64,000 bases of DNA, from NCBI GenBank assembly GCA_030612705.1, contig JAUWNI010000005.1, positions 1-64,000 on the forward strand, given 5' to 3'. This document shows, in pieces, positions 32,747 to 57,521 of this stretch. Below the pieces are notes generated by a model. It saw only the letters and a program-made list of their open reading frames with translations. It had not been told where the DNA came from and made no database searches. Source of the DNA: Phycisphaerae bacterium (GTDB lineage Bacteria > Planctomycetota > Phycisphaerae > UBA1845 > Fen-1342). Each line of letters opens with the position of its first letter. The first letter of the stretch is position 1. The position numbers and the translations under genes were made by a program.

Positions 32747-32869
32747 GAAGAGCCGCGGACTTCAGTCCGCACGGTGCGACGCCTTTTGAAGAGCCGCGGG
32801 CTTCAGTCCGCGCGGTGTGGCGCCTTTTGAAGAGCCGCGGACTTCAGTCCGCGCGGTGTGGCCGCGCAC
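32747..32869. repeat. Three tandem 41-bp REP units upstream of purH
   Basis: gaagagccgcgg(a/g)cttcagtccgc.cggtg...gcctttt starting at 32747, 32788 and 32829. Confidence 0.8.
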
Positions 32870-32945
32870 GCTAAAGCCTGCGGTTCTTCTATTTGAAGTG
32901 CGCCGGGGATGTGTCGAGCGTATCTCTCTATGTGTGGACACGATC

Positions 32946-35540
32946 ATGTCTGACTCAACCAAGATTCGGCGAGCACTGATCAGCGTTTACGACAAGATCG
33001 GGATCGTCGATTTCGCCCGCGCGCTGCACGACGAGTTCGGAATCGAGATCATCTCGACCGGCGGAACGGCCAAGGCGCTAACCGACGCCGGCATTCCGGT
33101 GACGCTGGTCGAGGACGTCACCAGGTTTCCGGAGATGATGGACGGACGGGTCAAGACGCTGCACCCGAAGATCCACGCGGCAATTCTCGCCGACCGCGAC
33201 AACCCCGAGCACGTGCACCAGCTTAAAAAGCAGGGCATCGAGCCGATCGACATGGTGGTTGTGAATCTGTACCCGTTCGAAAAGACCATCGCCCAGCCTG
33301 ATTGCACGTTCGAGCAGGCGATCGAGATGATCGACATCGGCGGCCCATGCCTGCTCCGCGCCGCAGCGAAGAATCATCGGCATGTGTTGGTGCTCTCGAA
33401 CTCCGCTCAATATAGGCGAACACTTCGCTATCTGCGGAATGACGAGAAAACACCCGGTCCGGACTGGCCGCTTTGGCTGATGACGAAAGCATTTCAAGCG
33501 ACCGCCCCATACGACATCGCAATCCACAAGCACTTCGCGGAGCTGTATTGGGAAATCCCGTTTACGCCAATGGTCTTCTTGAGGTTAGGCCTATCGACCC
33601 CCACGCCCGGGAACGAATTGCGCTATGGCGAGAATCCTCATCAGCGTGCGAGCGTCTATGGCGTTACCGGTGTACGTGGCGGTGTAGTCCATGCACGCGT
33701 TTTCGGTAACGAAGACCTGTTCTCCTTCAACAACTACGCGGACGCGAGCGCGGCGATGGAGTTGTGCGCGGAACTGACGCGGGCACAGTGCGGAGGACCG
33801 GGCGGACTGAAGTCCGCGGCTCTTTACGAGGGACGTGGTTCGAACGAAGAAGAGCCTCGGGCTTCAGCCCGTCCGGTCTCACGCGACGAGGGACTTTCCA
33901 CCCCAACCCACGCAGCACCCCCCAACGAAGAGCCTTGGGCTTCAGCCCGTCCGGTTCCCCGACCGGAGCAAGCTTCGCTGCTCGCAAGCGTCTTCCAGGA
34001 GCCCGACCGCAACAGCCCCGCGTGGCTGCTGACCTGGACGACCTACGGCTCCTGGCTACCCGGAGACAAACGAGGCTTCGTAAGCCGGCGCCCGACCGAT
34101 TCCGGCGGAAGCGCCGTCAGAAACATCCCGGGAACCCCGTACGACGCCGATCAGGAGGACGCCGAGGACGCCGCCAAGGAGCGGATGAAAGGCACGCCGG
34201 TATCGCTGACTGAGGCCGAGGCGCAGACCGCCCTCGAGGCGTTCGTGGAAGCGGCAAACACACACGGCATCGCGCTCATCGCGGTCAGCATCATGTCTGA
34301 CCACGTGCATCTGTTGTGTCAAGGCGAACAGGACGGAACGAAGCTGATGCAGCTCTTCAAGGGCGTGTCCGCGCGACGCATGAGCCAGGCGCACGCGCTG
34401 CCCGACGCGCCGCGCTGGTGGACGACATCCGGATCGCGGCGCTATATCCAGAAAGGAAGCGATCCGTCGTCCGCGGTGGAGTATATTTGCGAACAGAAAG
34501 GCGCACTGTGCAATTGCTGGTTCGGGGAGCTATCGCGGATTGGGACGAGCCAAGGTCGAATGACCGGGCAGGCTGAAGCCCGCGGTTCTTCGGGCACTCC
34601 TACGACCGAACAAACCGAGACGCGGGACGTTTCACACACGAGAAAGACCGGGCGGACTGAAGTCCGCGGCTCTTCTTCGAAGAGCGGGAGCTGTGCCGTG
34701 TGCTTCATCAAGCACACCAACGCCTGTGGAGCGGCTATCGGTACCGATCCGACCGAAACCTATCGCAAGGCGTACCTGGGCGATCCCAACGCCGCCATGG
34801 GCGGGATTCTGGCGGTCAACTTCAACGTTGACGCCGAATTCGCGGCCACCGTCATGGAGACTTACCAGCGCTGGGGCAAGCCGCTCAGAGAGGCTGGGCA
34901 TCCGGCCGCGCCCGGAGCGTTCTTTATCGAGGTCTGGCTGGCACCGAGCTTCGACGAAAAAGCCGTGCGAATCATCCGCGGAGAAGCCGAGGGCAAGCCT
35001 CAGAAGGCATGGGGCAAACGCGTCCGCCTGCTTGAGGTCGGCGATATGAGCACCGAACCCGACGCGAGCGAGATGGACATCAAACGGATCGCCGGTGGCG
35101 TGCTGATGCAGGGGCGCGATCTGGTCGGTCTGAACGAAGACGAATGGAAAGTCGTCACGGAACGTCAGCCGACCGAAGCAGAGACGGCCGATCTGCGGCT
35201 GGCGTGGCTGATCTGCAAGCACACCAAGAGCAACGCGATCACGGTCTGCAAGGACGGGATGTTGCTCGGCAACGGGGCCGGGCAGATGAGCCGAGTGATG
35301 AGTTGCCGAATCGCAACTTGGCTGGCGAAGGAGAATGGGCACGAAAAGATGCTGAAGGGAGCAGTCGCGGCTTCGGACGCCTTCTTCCCCTTCCGCGACG
35401 GGCCGGACATTCTGGCCGACGCCGGTGTAACGGCGCTGATCCAGCCCGGCGGCAGCAAGCGAGATGAAGACACGATCGCCGCCTGCAACGAACGCGGCAT
35501 CGCGATGATCTTCACCGGTACGCGACACTTCAAACATTGA
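32946..35540 (+). CDS. purH: Bifunctional AICAR transformylase/IMP cyclohydrolase PurH with an in-frame REP/RAYT insertion
   Basis: RALISVYDKIGIVDFA, STGGTAKAL, MDGRVKTLHPKIHAAIL, NLYPFEKT, RYGENPHQRAS, then after the insertion CAVCFIKHTNACGAAIG ... GVTALIQPGGSKRDEDTIAACNERGIAMIFTGTRHFKH. Confidence 0.92.
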   Translation: MSDSTKIRRALISVYDKIGIVDFARALHDEFGIEIISTGGTAKALTDAGIPVTLVEDVTRFPEMMDGRVKTLHPKIHAAILADRDNPEHVHQLKKQGIEPIDMVVVNLYPFEKTIAQPDCTFEQAIEMIDIGGPCLLRAAAKNHRHVLVLSNSAQYRRTLRYLRNDEKTPGPDWPLWLMTKAFQATAPYDIAIHKHFAELYWEIPFTPMVFLRLGLSTPTPGNELRYGENPHQRASVYGVTGVRGGVVHARVFGNEDLFSFNNYADASAAMELCAELTRAQCGGPGGLKSAALYEGRGSNEEEPRASARPVSRDEGLSTPTHAAPPNEEPWASARPVPRPEQASLLASVFQEPDRNSPAWLLTWTTYGSWLPGDKRGFVSRRPTDSGGSAVRNIPGTPYDADQEDAEDAAKERMKGTPVSLTEAEAQTALEAFVEAANTHGIALIAVSIMSDHVHLLCQGEQDGTKLMQLFKGVSARRMSQAHALPDAPRWWTTSGSRRYIQKGSDPSSAVEYICEQKGALCNCWFGELSRIGTSQGRMTGQAEARGSSGTPTTEQTETRDVSHTRKTGRTEVRGSSSKSGSCAVCFIKHTNACGAAIGTDPTETYRKAYLGDPNAAMGGILAVNFNVDAEFAATVMETYQRWGKPLREAGHPAAPGAFFIEVWLAPSFDEKAVRIIRGEAEGKPQKAWGKRVRLLEVGDMSTEPDASEMDIKRIAGGVLMQGRDLVGLNEDEWKVVTERQPTEAETADLRLAWLICKHTKSNAITVCKDGMLLGNGAGQMSRVMSCRIATWLAKENGHEKMLKGAVAASDAFFPFRDGPDILADAGVTALIQPGGSKRDEDTIAACNERGIAMIFTGTRHFKH
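33796..34674 (+). mobile_element. REP/RAYT unit embedded in frame within purH
   Basis: Bracketed by identical 29-bp gaccgggcggactgaagtccgcggctctt copies (33796-33824, 34646-34674); internal REPs at 33849, 33927 (opposite orientation) and 34563; Y1 transposase-like domain between. Confidence 0.85.
34020..34530 (+). CDS. Y1/REP-associated tyrosine transposase domain (no separate start codon, part of the purH frame)
   Basis: AWLLTWTTYGSWLPGDKRGFV ... SIMSDHVHLLCQG (HVH at 34302-34310) ... WWTTSGSRRYIQKGSDPSSAVEYICEQKG (candidate catalytic Tyr at 34482-34484). Confidence 0.82.
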
Positions 35541-35616
35541 ATCGATTGGGGATTGACGATTGCGGATTGGGGATTTAGCGCGGGTCCGCGGCTCTTCGGG
35601 AACCACGACAATCCCT

Positions 35617-51477: not shown

Positions 51478-53343
51478 CTAACCACCGGTCTCGGAATGCG
51501 GCAGTTCGACGGTAAACTTCGATCCCTTCGACGGCGCGCTCTCCAGGTGAATATCGCCGCCGTGTAAACGCGCCACCTCGCGCGCGATTGCCAAACCCAA
51601 ACCCGTTCCGGTGACCATCTGTACCTCGTCGCTGACGGCCCGATAGAACTTCTCGAAAACGTGCGTCTGGTCTTCAGGGGCGATACCGATGCCCGTGTCG
51701 GCCACCGTGATCTCCACGCACAGCTCACCTACCTCCAGCGTGACCTCCACACGACCACCTTCCGGCGTGTACTTGATCGCGTTTCCAATCAGATTGGTGA
51801 TCAAAACCGACAGACGCTGCTTGTCGCCTTGAACCCTCGGAACCTTCGGCGCCAGCTTCAACGTCAAATCGATCTGCTTTTCGTCCGCGGCCCCCAGGTG
51901 ATCCTGCACGATCTGCCGCAACAGCCGCACCAGATCAACCTGCCCCATCTCGATCCGCGCGGTGCCGACCTCGAGCTGCGAAATGTTCAGGATGTCCTCG
52001 ATCAGCCGGGAAAGTCGCCGGGTCTCGCTGATAATGACGTTGTAGCACTCCCGCCGCGTCTTTTCGTCGTCGAAGCCCGGGCCGGTCAGCGTTTCAGCAT
52101 AGGCCTGGATGTTTGTCAGCGGCGTGCGCAACTCGTGCGTCACGTGATAGAGGAAGTTATCGCGCGCCCGATCGGCCTCCTGTAGATGACTGACGTCCTC
52201 GATCGTTATCAGCGCCTCACGATCGGGCGACGATGACCTCGCCGGTATCATCGCGAATCGCAGCGTGGTTTGTTGCTCGTCATCGCCGCGCTTGCGGTCG
52301 ATCGACATGGCCGCCACCGAGCGCGTGTACGCCCCCACCAGCGGCGCCCGCACCTCCTCCTCGACGACGCTCGCCAGCGGCATTCCGACCAGCGTCTCGG
52401 CCGGTTGCCCCAGCAGCCGACCCGCCGCCAGATTGGCGTACGTGACGTGCTGGTCCGGTCCGAAACGCAGCAAGCCGATCGGCAGCCGATCAAGCGTCGA
52501 ACGCAGCGTCCGGCTCTCGAAACGCCGCAGCGCGTCGTCAGCCAGGTCCGCCGACGCGGGCTCGGTCTCCTGATTGCGTAACTCCGCCAACTGCCCGATC
52601 AGGTGGTTCCACGCCTGGGCGATATGCCCGAGCGAATCGCTCAGGCTCAACGCAATGAATTCCTTTTCCACCCCGGACGCGTAATTCTGCAAATTCCGTT
52701 GAATCGCATCCAGCGGCCGCAAATGACGCCGCAGCCGACGATAAAGCGCGAAATAAACCAGCAGGGTGATTACCGTTGCAATGGCAAAGCCACGCAGCAA
52801 GCTCGATAGCGAACCAGCCGGCTCTGTAAACTCAAACGTCAATCGAACCGACCCCGACGGCGTGCCCTCGGCGGTCTGAACCGGAGCGCTGAACGCTACA
52901 AAGTCCAGATCCCACGACGCCTGCCCGCTCGAACCTCCCGGCAGCACCACCCCGACACCTTTCGGCCATCGGCAACGCACGCTCCCGTCCGGCAGAAGCC
53001 ACTCCGCCGTCCGCAGGGCAGGGTTCTTCGCGCACAACTGTTGCAGCGCCGCCTCTGCCGCCACATCGTCCTGATCGACGAACTGCCCGATCGCCGCCGC
53101 GACGACGTCCGCGACCGCCTGCCCCTCGGACATCCGCACTTCTTCGGCTTGGTGCCGCAAAGTGAAGTGTGCGAACACGCTTACGCCCACCAGCCCCATC
53201 ACCAGCGTGGCGGCCAGCGCGATGCCGAGCACTTCCGGAAACGCCGAGTTCCAAAACCGCACACTCTTCTCCGGCGGGCCCATTTCGACCAGCTCGTCGC
53301 TCGGCGGTGGCGGTTGGTTTTCCTGACTTGATGCTTCCATCAT
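51478..53343 (-). CDS. PAS-containing sensor histidine kinase
   Basis: HVTHELRTPLTNIQAYAETL, LITNLIGNAIKYTPEGG, VADTGIGIAPEDQTHVFEKFYR, GTGLGLAIAREV. Confidence 0.93.
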   Translation of the reverse strand: MMEASSQENQPPPPSDELVEMGPPEKSVRFWNSAFPEVLGIALAATLVMGLVGVSVFAHFTLRHQAEEVRMSEGQAVADVVAAAIGQFVDQDDVAAEAALQQLCAKNPALRTAEWLLPDGSVRCRWPKGVGVVLPGGSSGQASWDLDFVAFSAPVQTAEGTPSGSVRLTFEFTEPAGSLSSLLRGFAIATVITLLVYFALYRRLRRHLRPLDAIQRNLQNYASGVEKEFIALSLSDSLGHIAQAWNHLIGQLAELRNQETEPASADLADDALRRFESRTLRSTLDRLPIGLLRFGPDQHVTYANLAAGRLLGQPAETLVGMPLASVVEEEVRAPLVGAYTRSVAAMSIDRKRGDDEQQTTLRFAMIPARSSSPDREALITIEDVSHLQEADRARDNFLYHVTHELRTPLTNIQAYAETLTGPGFDDEKTRRECYNVIISETRRLSRLIEDILNISQLEVGTARIEMGQVDLVRLLRQIVQDHLGAADEKQIDLTLKLAPKVPRVQGDKQRLSVLITNLIGNAIKYTPEGGRVEVTLEVGELCVEITVADTGIGIAPEDQTHVFEKFYRAVSDEVQMVTGTGLGLAIAREVARLHGGDIHLESAPSKGSKFTVELPHSETGG

Positions 53344-53969
53344 TAACTCGACGCGCAATATCGGCGCACGGTTTCCAACCGTACTCGTTCGGCATATCGT
53401 CGAGCGCATAGGGGTACTTAAGCACCGTCCACCCGTGAGAGGCGATTGCCCCTATGTCCGTTAATGTGTGTGTAACCCCCCGAGAACTGCTGTAACATTC
53501 CCTTCCGATAAACACTCAAAGCACCTCGTGGAGTAAGGAACGCGCGAACCGAATCCACACATAGTCGCAGCGCTAAGATCCCAGGATCCGGGAATATGGG
53601 GATATGGGGATAATGGGTATATGGGGAGTGCAAAGCTCTGCTTTGCGTAAATGTGGCTACAACACGGGGCGAGCGTCAGGAAAGCGAGTAACGCCTGAAT
53701 GTCATTCCGAACGTGCCCGCCTGAGACGGACGCGCGGCGGAATCCGGCCCAAACCCGAGTCCCGGCTAGATTCCTCGGCGCGGAGTCTGCCCTGAGCGAA
53801 GCCGAAGGGCTCAGCATGACGTTCAACCATTTCCGCTCCCGTTAGTATCCCCGCAAATGACGCACACCTTACAACTCGAATTCGTCCGCAACCATAGTGC
53901 AATCCAACCACGACTTTGGTAAACTGTAGACTTGAGCGGGGACGGTTACCCTTCTATCTGTCAGGGGTT

Positions 53970-56450
53970 ATGTCAGACGGGAACACCAAAACCACCCTCG
54001 ACGACGCCCGCGGCCTGCGCGTCGGCCAGATCCTCAACGACTTCCTCGACGCCCGGGCGCGCGGCGAGGCGGTCAACGAGGCCGAACTACTCACAAAGCA
54101 TCCAGACCTCGCCGACGAGCTTCGCCAACACCTCGAATTGCTAGGCGAGCTGCGCCCCGCCACCGATAAGATCGAAGCCCTCATCGCCCAGGGCATCCTC
54201 AGTCCGTGTAACGCCGAGGAAGGCGGGGACAGGCTTCGCGCCAAAGTGTCAGGAACGGATTCTCCACGCGGTGCCTGCCCCCGTTTTCCGCCCCGCTATC
54301 TCGCCCAGCTCGGCCCGTACAAGATCTTCGGGATTCTCGGCAGCGGCGGGATGGGCTTCGTGCTCAAGGCCTACGAGGAAAGCCTGAACCGCGTCGTCGC
54401 CCTGAAAATACTCCGCCCCGAACTCGCCGGCGACAAAGCCGCCCTGGCCCGCTTCACGCGTGAGGCCAAAGCCGCCGCCGCCCTGAAACATCCGAATATT
54501 GTCACGGTCTACGCGGTCGGGCAGGAGCGCGACACGCACTACCTGGCGATGGAATACGTCGAGGGTCCCAATCTCGCCAACGTCATCCGCGACCCGAATG
54601 TAGCGGCCGGCGCCCCCGCCGGCCGAGGGAGCATAGCCCCTGACACCTCGTCGGCCGAAACAGACCGAGCCCTGAGCGCAAGCGAGGGGAACACCACGCC
54701 CACCCCCCAAATCCCCAATCGTGAATCGTCAATCGCCAATCCGGAGCTTGTCCGCCACATCTTCCGTCAACTGCTAAGCGCCCTGGCCGCCGCCCACGAG
54801 GCCGGCCTGATCCACCGCGACGTGAAAAGCTCCAACATCCTGCTCGATTGCGGATCGGAGATTGGAGATTGGGGATTGGGGGTACCGGACGGGGCCGGCT
54901 CCGCTATCGACCAATCCCCAATCCACAATCGTCAATCCCCAATCGTCAAGCTTGCCGACTTCGGCCTCGCCCGCATGATCACCGCCCAGACCCGCGTCAC
55001 GCTCGGCGACTCGATCCTCGGCACCCCCGAATACATGAGCCCCGAACAGGCCCGTGGCGACGAGAACATCGACCACCGCAGCGACCTCTACTCCGCCGGC
55101 ATCGTCCTCTACGAAATGCTCACCGGCCGCACGCCGTTCCGGGCCGACACGCCCAGCGCTGTGATCCACCAGATTCTGAACGTCGACCCGCCCGAGCCGA
55201 AAACGACTAAGCGCGACGTCGATCTGGTCTTGGCGCATCTGGCGCTCTGGCTGATGGCCAAGCGACCGGAAGACCGCCCTGCATCGGCCAGCGAAGCTCT
55301 GGAAGTCCTGGAGCATCGGCAGATGCGGCGACATCGAGGACATCCCAAGCGCATCCGGCGTCGTGCGGCCGTTCTCGCCGGAGTGTTGGCCGTTGCGGTC
55401 TTCGCAATCTGGGTCGTTCAGTCTGTGGTCCGGGGACCGGGTGAGATCGCTGAAGTCCGCGTCACGGGGGATGGACGCATTGTCCAGGTTCGCTATGAAG
55501 TCAACGGATGGACGGACTTCTATGCCGCTCCCACTCCGGGCGCGACCGCCAACGCGGAACTCGTCGACTTAGATGGAACTGGCAGGTGCGCAGTCGTGTT
55601 CGGGGTAAATGAGATCGCGGCGAACGGGAGTCTCATCGCACTCGACTCCAACGGGAAGAAGCTCTGGGACCTGTTCTTGCACGACGAGGCCGAACGGGAC
55701 TGGCCGGATTGTGGCCTGCCTTACGAATGGGACTGTTCCGTAATGGCAGTCGGGAACCTCGATGCTGAGCCCGGGGACGAAATTGTCGCAACGGCTGTTC
55801 AAAATAACTGCTACATGACAATGCTGGCCATCGTCAAACCGTCCCAAGACGCAGGAGAGGTTAAAGCTGTGTTCTGGCACATGGGAGGGATAAGCTCCGC
55901 GCAGATCGAGCAAGATTTCTTCAGTCCCGGCGGCCCGGCCATCGTTGTTCGTGGGGTTAACAACAAACTGGACGGATTCAATGAAGAAGCGCCTGCTAAG
56001 CGAGATACCCGACTTACACGCTACGACTATGTTCCGGTGCTCATGATCCTGGACCCGCGGCGGCTGATGGGACTCGAAAGCCTTGGTCCACCTGCTGATA
56101 ATCCACTGAATATTCCGTCAGCGCATATACACGCGTACGCATTCCTGGACCTGGCGGGCTCGATGGACGTCACGCGCCGAGACGGACTCGAACGCTTCAA
56201 TGTCGAACCACATGAACACGGCGCACTCGACTTCATCCTGTCATACGAAAGCGATGATCCTTACGGGCGGTGGAGAGACGTCGGGGTCTTCGATTTGGAC
56301 TGGAAATCTCGTGCACATCTCACTCTGGATCGTAATCTCCGGATCATTGAAGCTCGTCCAAGCATGTACGAGACGCACGTAACAGACTCAAACGAATGGC
56401 TTGAACTCTGGCGCATAATCAGCCAGGACGGCAGATACGTGGACGAGTGA
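53970..56450 (+). CDS. Serine/threonine protein kinase with in-frame repeat-derived insertions
   Basis: GILGSGGMGFVLKAYE, VALKILRPE, HRDVKSSNILLD, VKLADFGLARM, GTPEYMSPEQARG; low-complexity, repeat-encoded insertions at about 54215..54290, 54597..54742 and 54848..54948. Confidence 0.9.
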   Translation: MSDGNTKTTLDDARGLRVGQILNDFLDARARGEAVNEAELLTKHPDLADELRQHLELLGELRPATDKIEALIAQGILSPCNAEEGGDRLRAKVSGTDSPRGACPRFPPRYLAQLGPYKIFGILGSGGMGFVLKAYEESLNRVVALKILRPELAGDKAALARFTREAKAAAALKHPNIVTVYAVGQERDTHYLAMEYVEGPNLANVIRDPNVAAGAPAGRGSIAPDTSSAETDRALSASEGNTTPTPQIPNRESSIANPELVRHIFRQLLSALAAAHEAGLIHRDVKSSNILLDCGSEIGDWGLGVPDGAGSAIDQSPIHNRQSPIVKLADFGLARMITAQTRVTLGDSILGTPEYMSPEQARGDENIDHRSDLYSAGIVLYEMLTGRTPFRADTPSAVIHQILNVDPPEPKTTKRDVDLVLAHLALWLMAKRPEDRPASASEALEVLEHRQMRRHRGHPKRIRRRAAVLAGVLAVAVFAIWVVQSVVRGPGEIAEVRVTGDGRIVQVRYEVNGWTDFYAAPTPGATANAELVDLDGTGRCAVVFGVNEIAANGSLIALDSNGKKLWDLFLHDEAERDWPDCGLPYEWDCSVMAVGNLDAEPGDEIVATAVQNNCYMTMLAIVKPSQDAGEVKAVFWHMGGISSAQIEQDFFSPGGPAIVVRGVNNKLDGFNEEAPAKRDTRLTRYDYVPVLMILDPRRLMGLESLGPPADNPLNIPSAHIHAYAFLDLAGSMDVTRRDGLERFNVEPHEHGALDFILSYESDDPYGRWRDVGVFDLDWKSRAHLTLDRNLRIIEARPSMYETHVTDSNEWLELWRIISQDGRYVDE

Positions 56451-56555
56451 TCGCCCTTATGGTCACCAGAATAACAGTCTCAAACGGCGCGACTCGGGCC
56501 GAGATGAAACTCTCGGCCCGTTGCCGCTCAAAGCTGTCTCTATTGCTGATTCGGT

Positions 56556-57521
56556 TTACGGAAGCCCCGTGAAGTACGTCTCAGCATAGTACACGCTCAG
56601 ACCTGCCGTGCCGCCGCTCTTGCCGAACCACCCCCTAAGCCTGTTTCCTTCCTGCAGCACCGCTGGCGCTTCACAGTTTCCTTCGGGCAGCGCCTCGAAA
56701 CCCTCGAGCAGCCCATGTTTGTCCCAAGTCATCCCGTCTTCGGAAGTCGCGTAGGCATACATGTTGGGGGTACTACACTTGTACCACATGTGGTAGAGAT
56801 CACAGACCTTGATGACGTTCACATAGCTCAGGAACTCATCGTACTCGCCTGAGCTGCCCGCGGGCATCGCACACCCGTGATCGGTCCAGTTCAGCCCGTC
56901 CTCCGAAGTTCCGTAGCGGTAGCAGGAGGCATCATCGTACAAGGTGAACCATGCCTCGAAGCCGGACTCGGTCGGCAAGATGTCGTAATGAAACCAATCT
57001 GCAACCCACCCTACATGCGTCCAGCTCTCTCCGTCAGCGGACACGGTGAAGTCGACGCTGGTCTCTCCTCCGGTTTGGCCCACCCACATGTAGTAGGCGC
57101 CGCACCTTTTCACGACTTTGGGCACAGCGTCATTCGTGCTATCGGGGAAATAAGCGTGTTCCGAACACGCCCAATCGAATCCATCGACGGACCAACTGTA
57201 CATCACCTCGAGTTGCCCGGTCTGACCGCCGTCGTGCCAGAGCTTGTACACCCCGTCATCGTAAAGGACGGTAATGGCGCCTGGGTAGTTGCATGGAGGC
57301 GACATAACCGGTTCGGGCTGTACGTTCCATTCGAGTGAAGCGGGCCCCGTCCACTGCTGGCCGTAGTTTGCCAGCAGGGCCGCCAGATCGGCCAGGTCGA
57401 CATCGCAGTCGCCGTCCAGATCGCCGGGCAAGGCGCCGGGGCATTCCGCAAAGCCCACCGGCGCGGTGAGCAAGATCGCAAGTACAACAGCCAGACTTGA
57501 AGAAGATCGTGTGTTTCGCAT
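56556..57521 (-). CDS. Secreted protein with N-terminal dockerin-like motif and beta-propeller/glycosidase-like body
   Basis: Signal peptide; GDLDGDCDVDLADLAALLANYGQQ; repeated SxDGxxW segments (SVDGFDWACSEHAYF, SADGESWTHVG, SEDGLNWTDHG, SEDGMTWDKHG). Confidence 0.8.
   Translation of the reverse strand: MRNTRSSSSLAVVLAILLTAPVGFAECPGALPGDLDGDCDVDLADLAALLANYGQQWTGPASLEWNVQPEPVMSPPCNYPGAITVLYDDGVYKLWHDGGQTGQLEVMYSWSVDGFDWACSEHAYFPDSTNDAVPKVVKRCGAYYMWVGQTGGETSVDFTVSADGESWTHVGWVADWFHYDILPTESGFEAWFTLYDDASCYRYGTSEDGLNWTDHGCAMPAGSSGEYDEFLSYVNVIKVCDLYHMWYKCSTPNMYAYATSEDGMTWDKHGLLEGFEALPEGNCEAPAVLQEGNRLRGWFGKSGGTAGLSVYYAETYFTGLP

Follow-up and report, generated by a model that had tools for sequence, protein, structure and literature searches.

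The window analysed here, a stretch of 64,000 nucleotides from a Phycisphaerae bacterium, carries a Ser/Thr kinase gene with three blocks of additional coding sequence, referred to as blocks 1, 2 and 3, as well as a purH gene with a transposase domain embedded in its frame (Table 1). The kinase is recognised by Pfam (Pkinase, E=1.2e-46) in an alignment interrupted by the inserts, and has the kinase fold together with the Gly-loop, the VALK lysine, HRD, DFG and the post-DFG motifs expected of a PknB-like enzyme. Its kinase and C-terminal domains are common to all the homologous loci that were compared, and a plasmid search with the kinase returned generic kinases only. An AlphaFold2 model made from an alignment of 45 kinases has a mean pLDDT of 80.7, with values mostly above 90 in the core and of about 45-60 in blocks 2 and 3; the core is thus modelled with confidence, and the two inserts are predicted to be disordered. 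Compared with Mycobacterium tuberculosis PknB (3orm), block 2 has 54 residues in place of 10 (about 44 extra) and block 3 has 30 in place of 2 (about 28 extra). A GGGGATAT octamer array also lies upstream of the kinase, at window positions 53590-53627.

Table 1. Features of the kinase and purH genes in the window, and related loci with embedded RAYT-like domains
Feature	Location	Strand	Remarks
purH with in-frame RAYT/Y1 transposase domain	32817..35540	+	Y1_Tnp match 34212-34421, between REP-type repeats
Ser/Thr protein kinase ORF, 826 aa	53970..56450	+	PknB-like kinase domain, hydrophobic segment, family-specific C-terminal domain
Block 1 hairpin, linker preceding kinase domain	54218..54289	+	Absent in homologues; single copy in genome
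Block 2, additional sequence ahead of helix alphaE	54591..54752	+	About 44 residues above PknB; disordered in AF2 model
GTAG-tagged REP-like palindrome in block 2	54600..54625	+	GTAG + 9-bp stem
AATCCCC/CAATCGT heptamer array in block 2	54710..54741	+	C-rich strand is the coding strand
Block 3 G-rich arm	54845..54879	+	GATTGGG/GATTGGA heptamers
Block 3 spacer	54880..54910	+	Single copy within 1.2 Mb searched
Block 3 C-rich arm	54911..54945	+	CAATCCC/CAATCGT heptamers, inverted relative to G arm
purH loci with in-frame RAYT/Y1-like domain	Window 32817-35540; L203, L204, L207, L212, L215, L233
RAYT-like domains in ileS, alaS (two), valS, gcvP	L198, L199, L200, L201, L202, L205, L206		Translated REP-type repeats on both sides

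Repeats found throughout the genome make up blocks 2 and 3. In block 2, where a preliminary description of this DNA had proposed an insertion made of a palindrome and further repeats, both components were recovered as genome-wide repeats. The palindrome (fold z=-2.1) has a GTAG tag adjoining a short stem, and its first 13 bases have 377 genome-wide matches with at most one mismatch, as opposed to 99 for the reversed control; within 1.2 Mb, its exact copies are mostly intergenic (34, with 7 at gene edges and 3 inside genes), as is typical of GTAG-tagged REPs. The AATCCCC-type array that follows has a period of 7 that was equalled in 0 of 400 codon shuffles. The heptamers are likewise abundant: at up to one mismatch, AATCCCCAATC matches the window 12 times where 1.04 would be expected, and CAATCSYCAATC has 252 matches in the window genome (G000) against 0 for the reversed control. 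Among relatives, CAATCSYCAATC has 0 matches in the same-genus genome G001, 224 in G007, and 15 or fewer in every other genome of the family.

Block 3 consists of two heptamer arms in inverted orientation, which are 83% complementary and are predicted to form a stable RNA hairpin (z=-5.56, with equal stability in 0 of 200 shuffles); its period-7 score of 16/17 was reached by 0 of 400 codon shuffles. A second copy of the spacer between the arms was sought in 1.2 Mb and was not found. The back-to-back repeats do stand before the DFG motif as had been described, while their assignment to the catalytic loop needs to be corrected: in the AlphaFold2 model block 3 is flanked by strands at residues 186-189 and 221-224, which places it in the beta7-beta8 turn, between the catalytic loop and DFG. 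Block 1, also thought to be a repeat-derived inverted insertion, folds as a genuine hairpin (z=-3.27) and is missing in the homologues; a second copy sought across the 4.4-Mb assembly was not found, and because the sequence is single-copy its origin from a repeat is unsupported.

The same loops were followed through 19 homologous loci, comprising L001-L017 from relatives in the family and order and L044 and L048 from named Phycisphaerae MAGs. In 11 of the 19, these 11 spanning 8 genomes, the block 3 loop contains a significant period-7 or period-8 array (equalled by 0-2 of 400 codon shuffles) through which the reading frame is kept. These arrays belong to different classes, with heptamers of CAATC (the window), TCAGC, GGGTTC and GGGGATC types, and further classes represented by GGGAACGT, AGGCAAC, and the ACCCCTCG and GGGATTGA octamers. 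Kinases lacking an insertion were also found, the loop being short in three homologues (L005, L009 and L044). Loops of unrelated, non-repetitive sequence, which the preliminary description had named as the observation that would speak against repeat-derived insertion, do occur in four homologues where block 3 is long without periodicity (L006, L015, L017 and L048), side by side with the 11 arrays; loop growth may therefore occur without repeats, or the repeats in these four may have decayed. One further homologue, the kinase paralogue L016 (G014:C309:25068-29633), has by inspection an octamer array of 163 nt, which leaves a remainder of 1 after division by 3, so that the gene is frameshifted within the array and its flanks are open in different frames. 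Retention of the frame, described for all three blocks, thus stands in the window and fails in this homologue, which may be a pseudogene or a sequencing error. By our own arithmetic, the chance of 11 of 12 arrays being in frame if the frame were random is about 5e-5, a value that assumes independence and that a search somewhat favouring in-frame copies may affect.

Block 2 varies in a similar way: the window and G007 have both GTAG palindromes and heptamers in it, G014 has GTAG palindromes, and G026 and G017 have heptamers, while in several other homologues it is a repeat-free stretch of about 14 residues. Two orthologues from one genus, L004 (G017) and L013 (G026), which group at 100/100 support, show a clean presence/absence of 33 aa in block 2, and their block 3 arrays differ in class. 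The kinase tree resolves few of its inner branches, so that independent gains are not exactly countable. The array units of homologues are mostly common in their own genomes, as with TCAGCYNTCAGCY (a TCAGCY heptamer; 74 matches in G026 and 62 in G017) and the CGTTCCCA / CGTTCCCACGTTCCCAC unit (305 matches in G007 at up to one mismatch); the ATCCCTSAATCCCT octamer is scarce, with 2 matches in G026 and 9 in G003, though the kinases of both genomes carry it.

The preliminary description had also extended its reading of the kinase and purH to a genome-wide tendency for repeats to enter coding regions in phase, which their distribution does not support. In about 1.2 Mb, with gene calls made by a home-made codon model without curated annotation, 77 period-7 arrays were found, of which 48 are intergenic, 11 overlap gene ends and 18 lie inside genes, against about 64 expected inside genes at a coding density of 83%; the 18 is an upper figure, since a few of these arrays lie about 6-50 aa from a predicted start and are perhaps extragenic. 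The contigs had been picked by repeat matches, which inflates counts per megabase and should have little effect on the ratio of arrays inside and outside genes. Where repeats are found in genes, they occur only in orientations free of stop codons: all 21 exact matches to GATTGACGATTG within genes are antisense and read CAATCGTCAATC on the coding strand, because the unit bears a TGA, and 10 of 13 array arms in genes have the C-rich strand as coding strand, the other three being G-strand arms without the GATTGAC unit. Depletion in genes together with stop-free orientation suggests selective survival of tolerated insertions, as opposed to directed in-phase entry.

Other genes of the window genome host heptamers in frame. 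Among them are uvrA, thiC and mutS, the last with its heptamers immediately ahead of the P-loop; a xanthine-dehydrogenase-like gene has three arrays and a radical-SAM gene an inverted pair, and in a second kinase an array occupies the same beta7-beta8 turn. These identities were read from sequence motifs, with that of mutS also confirmed by a family-wide MutS search. The MutS loop before the P-loop contains heptamers in the window genome, holds an array of GGGATCGA-type octamers in G025, and is short in about half of the family's other genomes. The region around the xanthine-dehydrogenase-like gene (G000:C142:833-23350; L156, L157) is dense in repeats: its roughly 23 kb contain about 16 heptamer arrays, of which that gene holds three in frame.

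Taken together, blocks 2 and 3 are probably copies of repeats in tolerant kinase loops, retained as near-neutral passengers, with the same loops refilled across the family. By this reading, two kinds of dispersed and mostly intergenic repeat, one an element of inverted heptamer arrays and the other a GTAG-tagged REP, would have entered the kinase at two surface loops, ahead of alphaE and in the beta7-beta8 turn, where they would be translated as disordered loops outside the core. Since reading frame and core are intact, the inserts would persist as near-neutral passengers, and because the loops of related kinases hold the repeats of other genomes, such loops appear to be sites where insertion recurs, refilled by whichever 7-mer, 8-mer or REP family a lineage holds. 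It is a reasonable guess that RAYT-type HUH transposases move the GTAG palindromes.

As units of 7 and 8 bp are not multiples of 3, arrays of such units within coding sequence could instead constitute a contingency locus, in which slippage-prone repeats switch the kinase on and off by frameshift, and the out-of-frame array of L016 would speak for it. We consider this unlikely, as arrays as short and degenerate as those of the window (about 5 units, 81-82% matches) make a poor slippage substrate, the frame is kept in the 11 other homologues with arrays, arrays of this kind are mostly intergenic, and L016 itself is open to the more trivial readings given above. It is also quite improbable that the loops are functional inserts, retained for regulation of the kinase or binding of a partner: recurrence at the same two loops and the long exact inverted arms of L001, L007, L008, L013 and L014 point in that direction, while sequence and repeat class vary among homologues, even between the same-genus orthologues, several homologues have short loops, and pLDDT is low for both inserts.

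The strong RNA hairpin predicted for block 3 might suggest that the insert is removed or skipped at the level of RNA or translation, as by an intron or bypassing. Against such removal, the frame and a stop-free reading are kept, the orientation of arrays in genes follows stop-codon avoidance, and an Rfam scan of 53000-57500 was without match, so that we give it very little weight. An assembly artefact of the metagenome bin is equally hard to credit; repeats can give rise to assembly errors, and this genome is split into 214 contigs, but the pattern recurs with the frame kept in 11 homologues of 8 genomes, and the purH inserts described below occupy one site in seven genomes.

Passenger repeats of this kind have parallels in known systems. 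Rickettsia palindromic elements (RPEs) occur in frame in protein genes, and Gmk of R. conorii is translated and active while carrying one (PMC2229807, PMC10969869). The likeness, hairpin-forming dispersed repeats in frame in conserved protein genes, is a functional parallel only, since RPEs are defined families of 105-146 bp, whereas the kinase loops described here hold genome-specific 7-mer and 8-mer arrays in the same loop. GTAG-tagged REPs, which are thought to be mobilised by RAYTs and have been reported in the PVC superphylum, are known together with CGTC REPs from within genes including uvrA and recB, and the recB genes of two Xanthomonas species carry different REPs at about the same site (PMC3733652). 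The block 2 palindrome resembles them in its tag and short stem, while block 3 is not a REP. The closest relatives of the heptamers are the GGGGA(T/C)T repeats of Nostoc and GGGAATC of Xanthomonas, which are scattered through those genomes with a deficit in coding regions (PMC4692102). Those of the window genome are likewise tandem GGGGATT-like 7-mers in runs of about four units, dispersed, over-represented in non-coding DNA and sometimes in inverted pairs; they differ in that in-frame copies are also found inside enzymes, and in that the common GATTGAC variant breaks the G-runs, which only the GATTGGG variant retains.

In-frame repeats in genes are therefore already known, and what is new is a single enzyme loop repeatedly filled by unrelated arrays; among open-licence papers, none was found on repeats in planctomycete kinase loops. 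With one loop, unrelated repeats and empty sites in close relatives, these kinases offer a natural experiment in the conversion of repetitive DNA into protein, which makes the neutrality of the inserts and the origin of new disordered loops testable.

The most striking side finding is that RAYT domains lie in frame within purH, ileS, alaS, valS and gcvP. At the purH site, for which the window genome has a single purH match, an in-frame RAYT-like domain is present in seven genomes of the family (G000, G011, G013, G014, G016, G017 and G019), those of G013, G016 and G017 having been recognised by visual inspection of the HUH motif, and at least two visibly different types can be distinguished. 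The site has 7-47 residues and no RAYT in G003, G004, G005, G015 and G021. Elsewhere, in-frame RAYTs were found in ileS (G017, G010 and G008), alaS (two in G011), valS (G016) and gcvP (G020 and G016); the Y1_Tnp domains of L201 and L206 were found by genome search and were absent in a repeat Pfam scan at 1e-5. No literature on RAYTs in frame within essential genes was found among open-licence papers, and such a location would represent a new RAYT lifestyle. We tentatively propose, as a possibility that falls short of even likelihood, that in this planctomycete family a few permissive loops of conserved genes (the beta7-beta8 turn of the kinase, the MutS loop ahead of the P-loop, those of PurH and IleS ahead of KHTNACG and KMSKS, respectively, and one in GcvP) might form a recurrent niche for selfish DNA, which repeat arrays and whole RAYT genes would enter in frame repeatedly, hiding as inteins do, without splicing. 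The window genome has ten Y1_Tnp matches, and a further heptamer array, at window positions 35544-35575, starts four bases past the purH stop codon.
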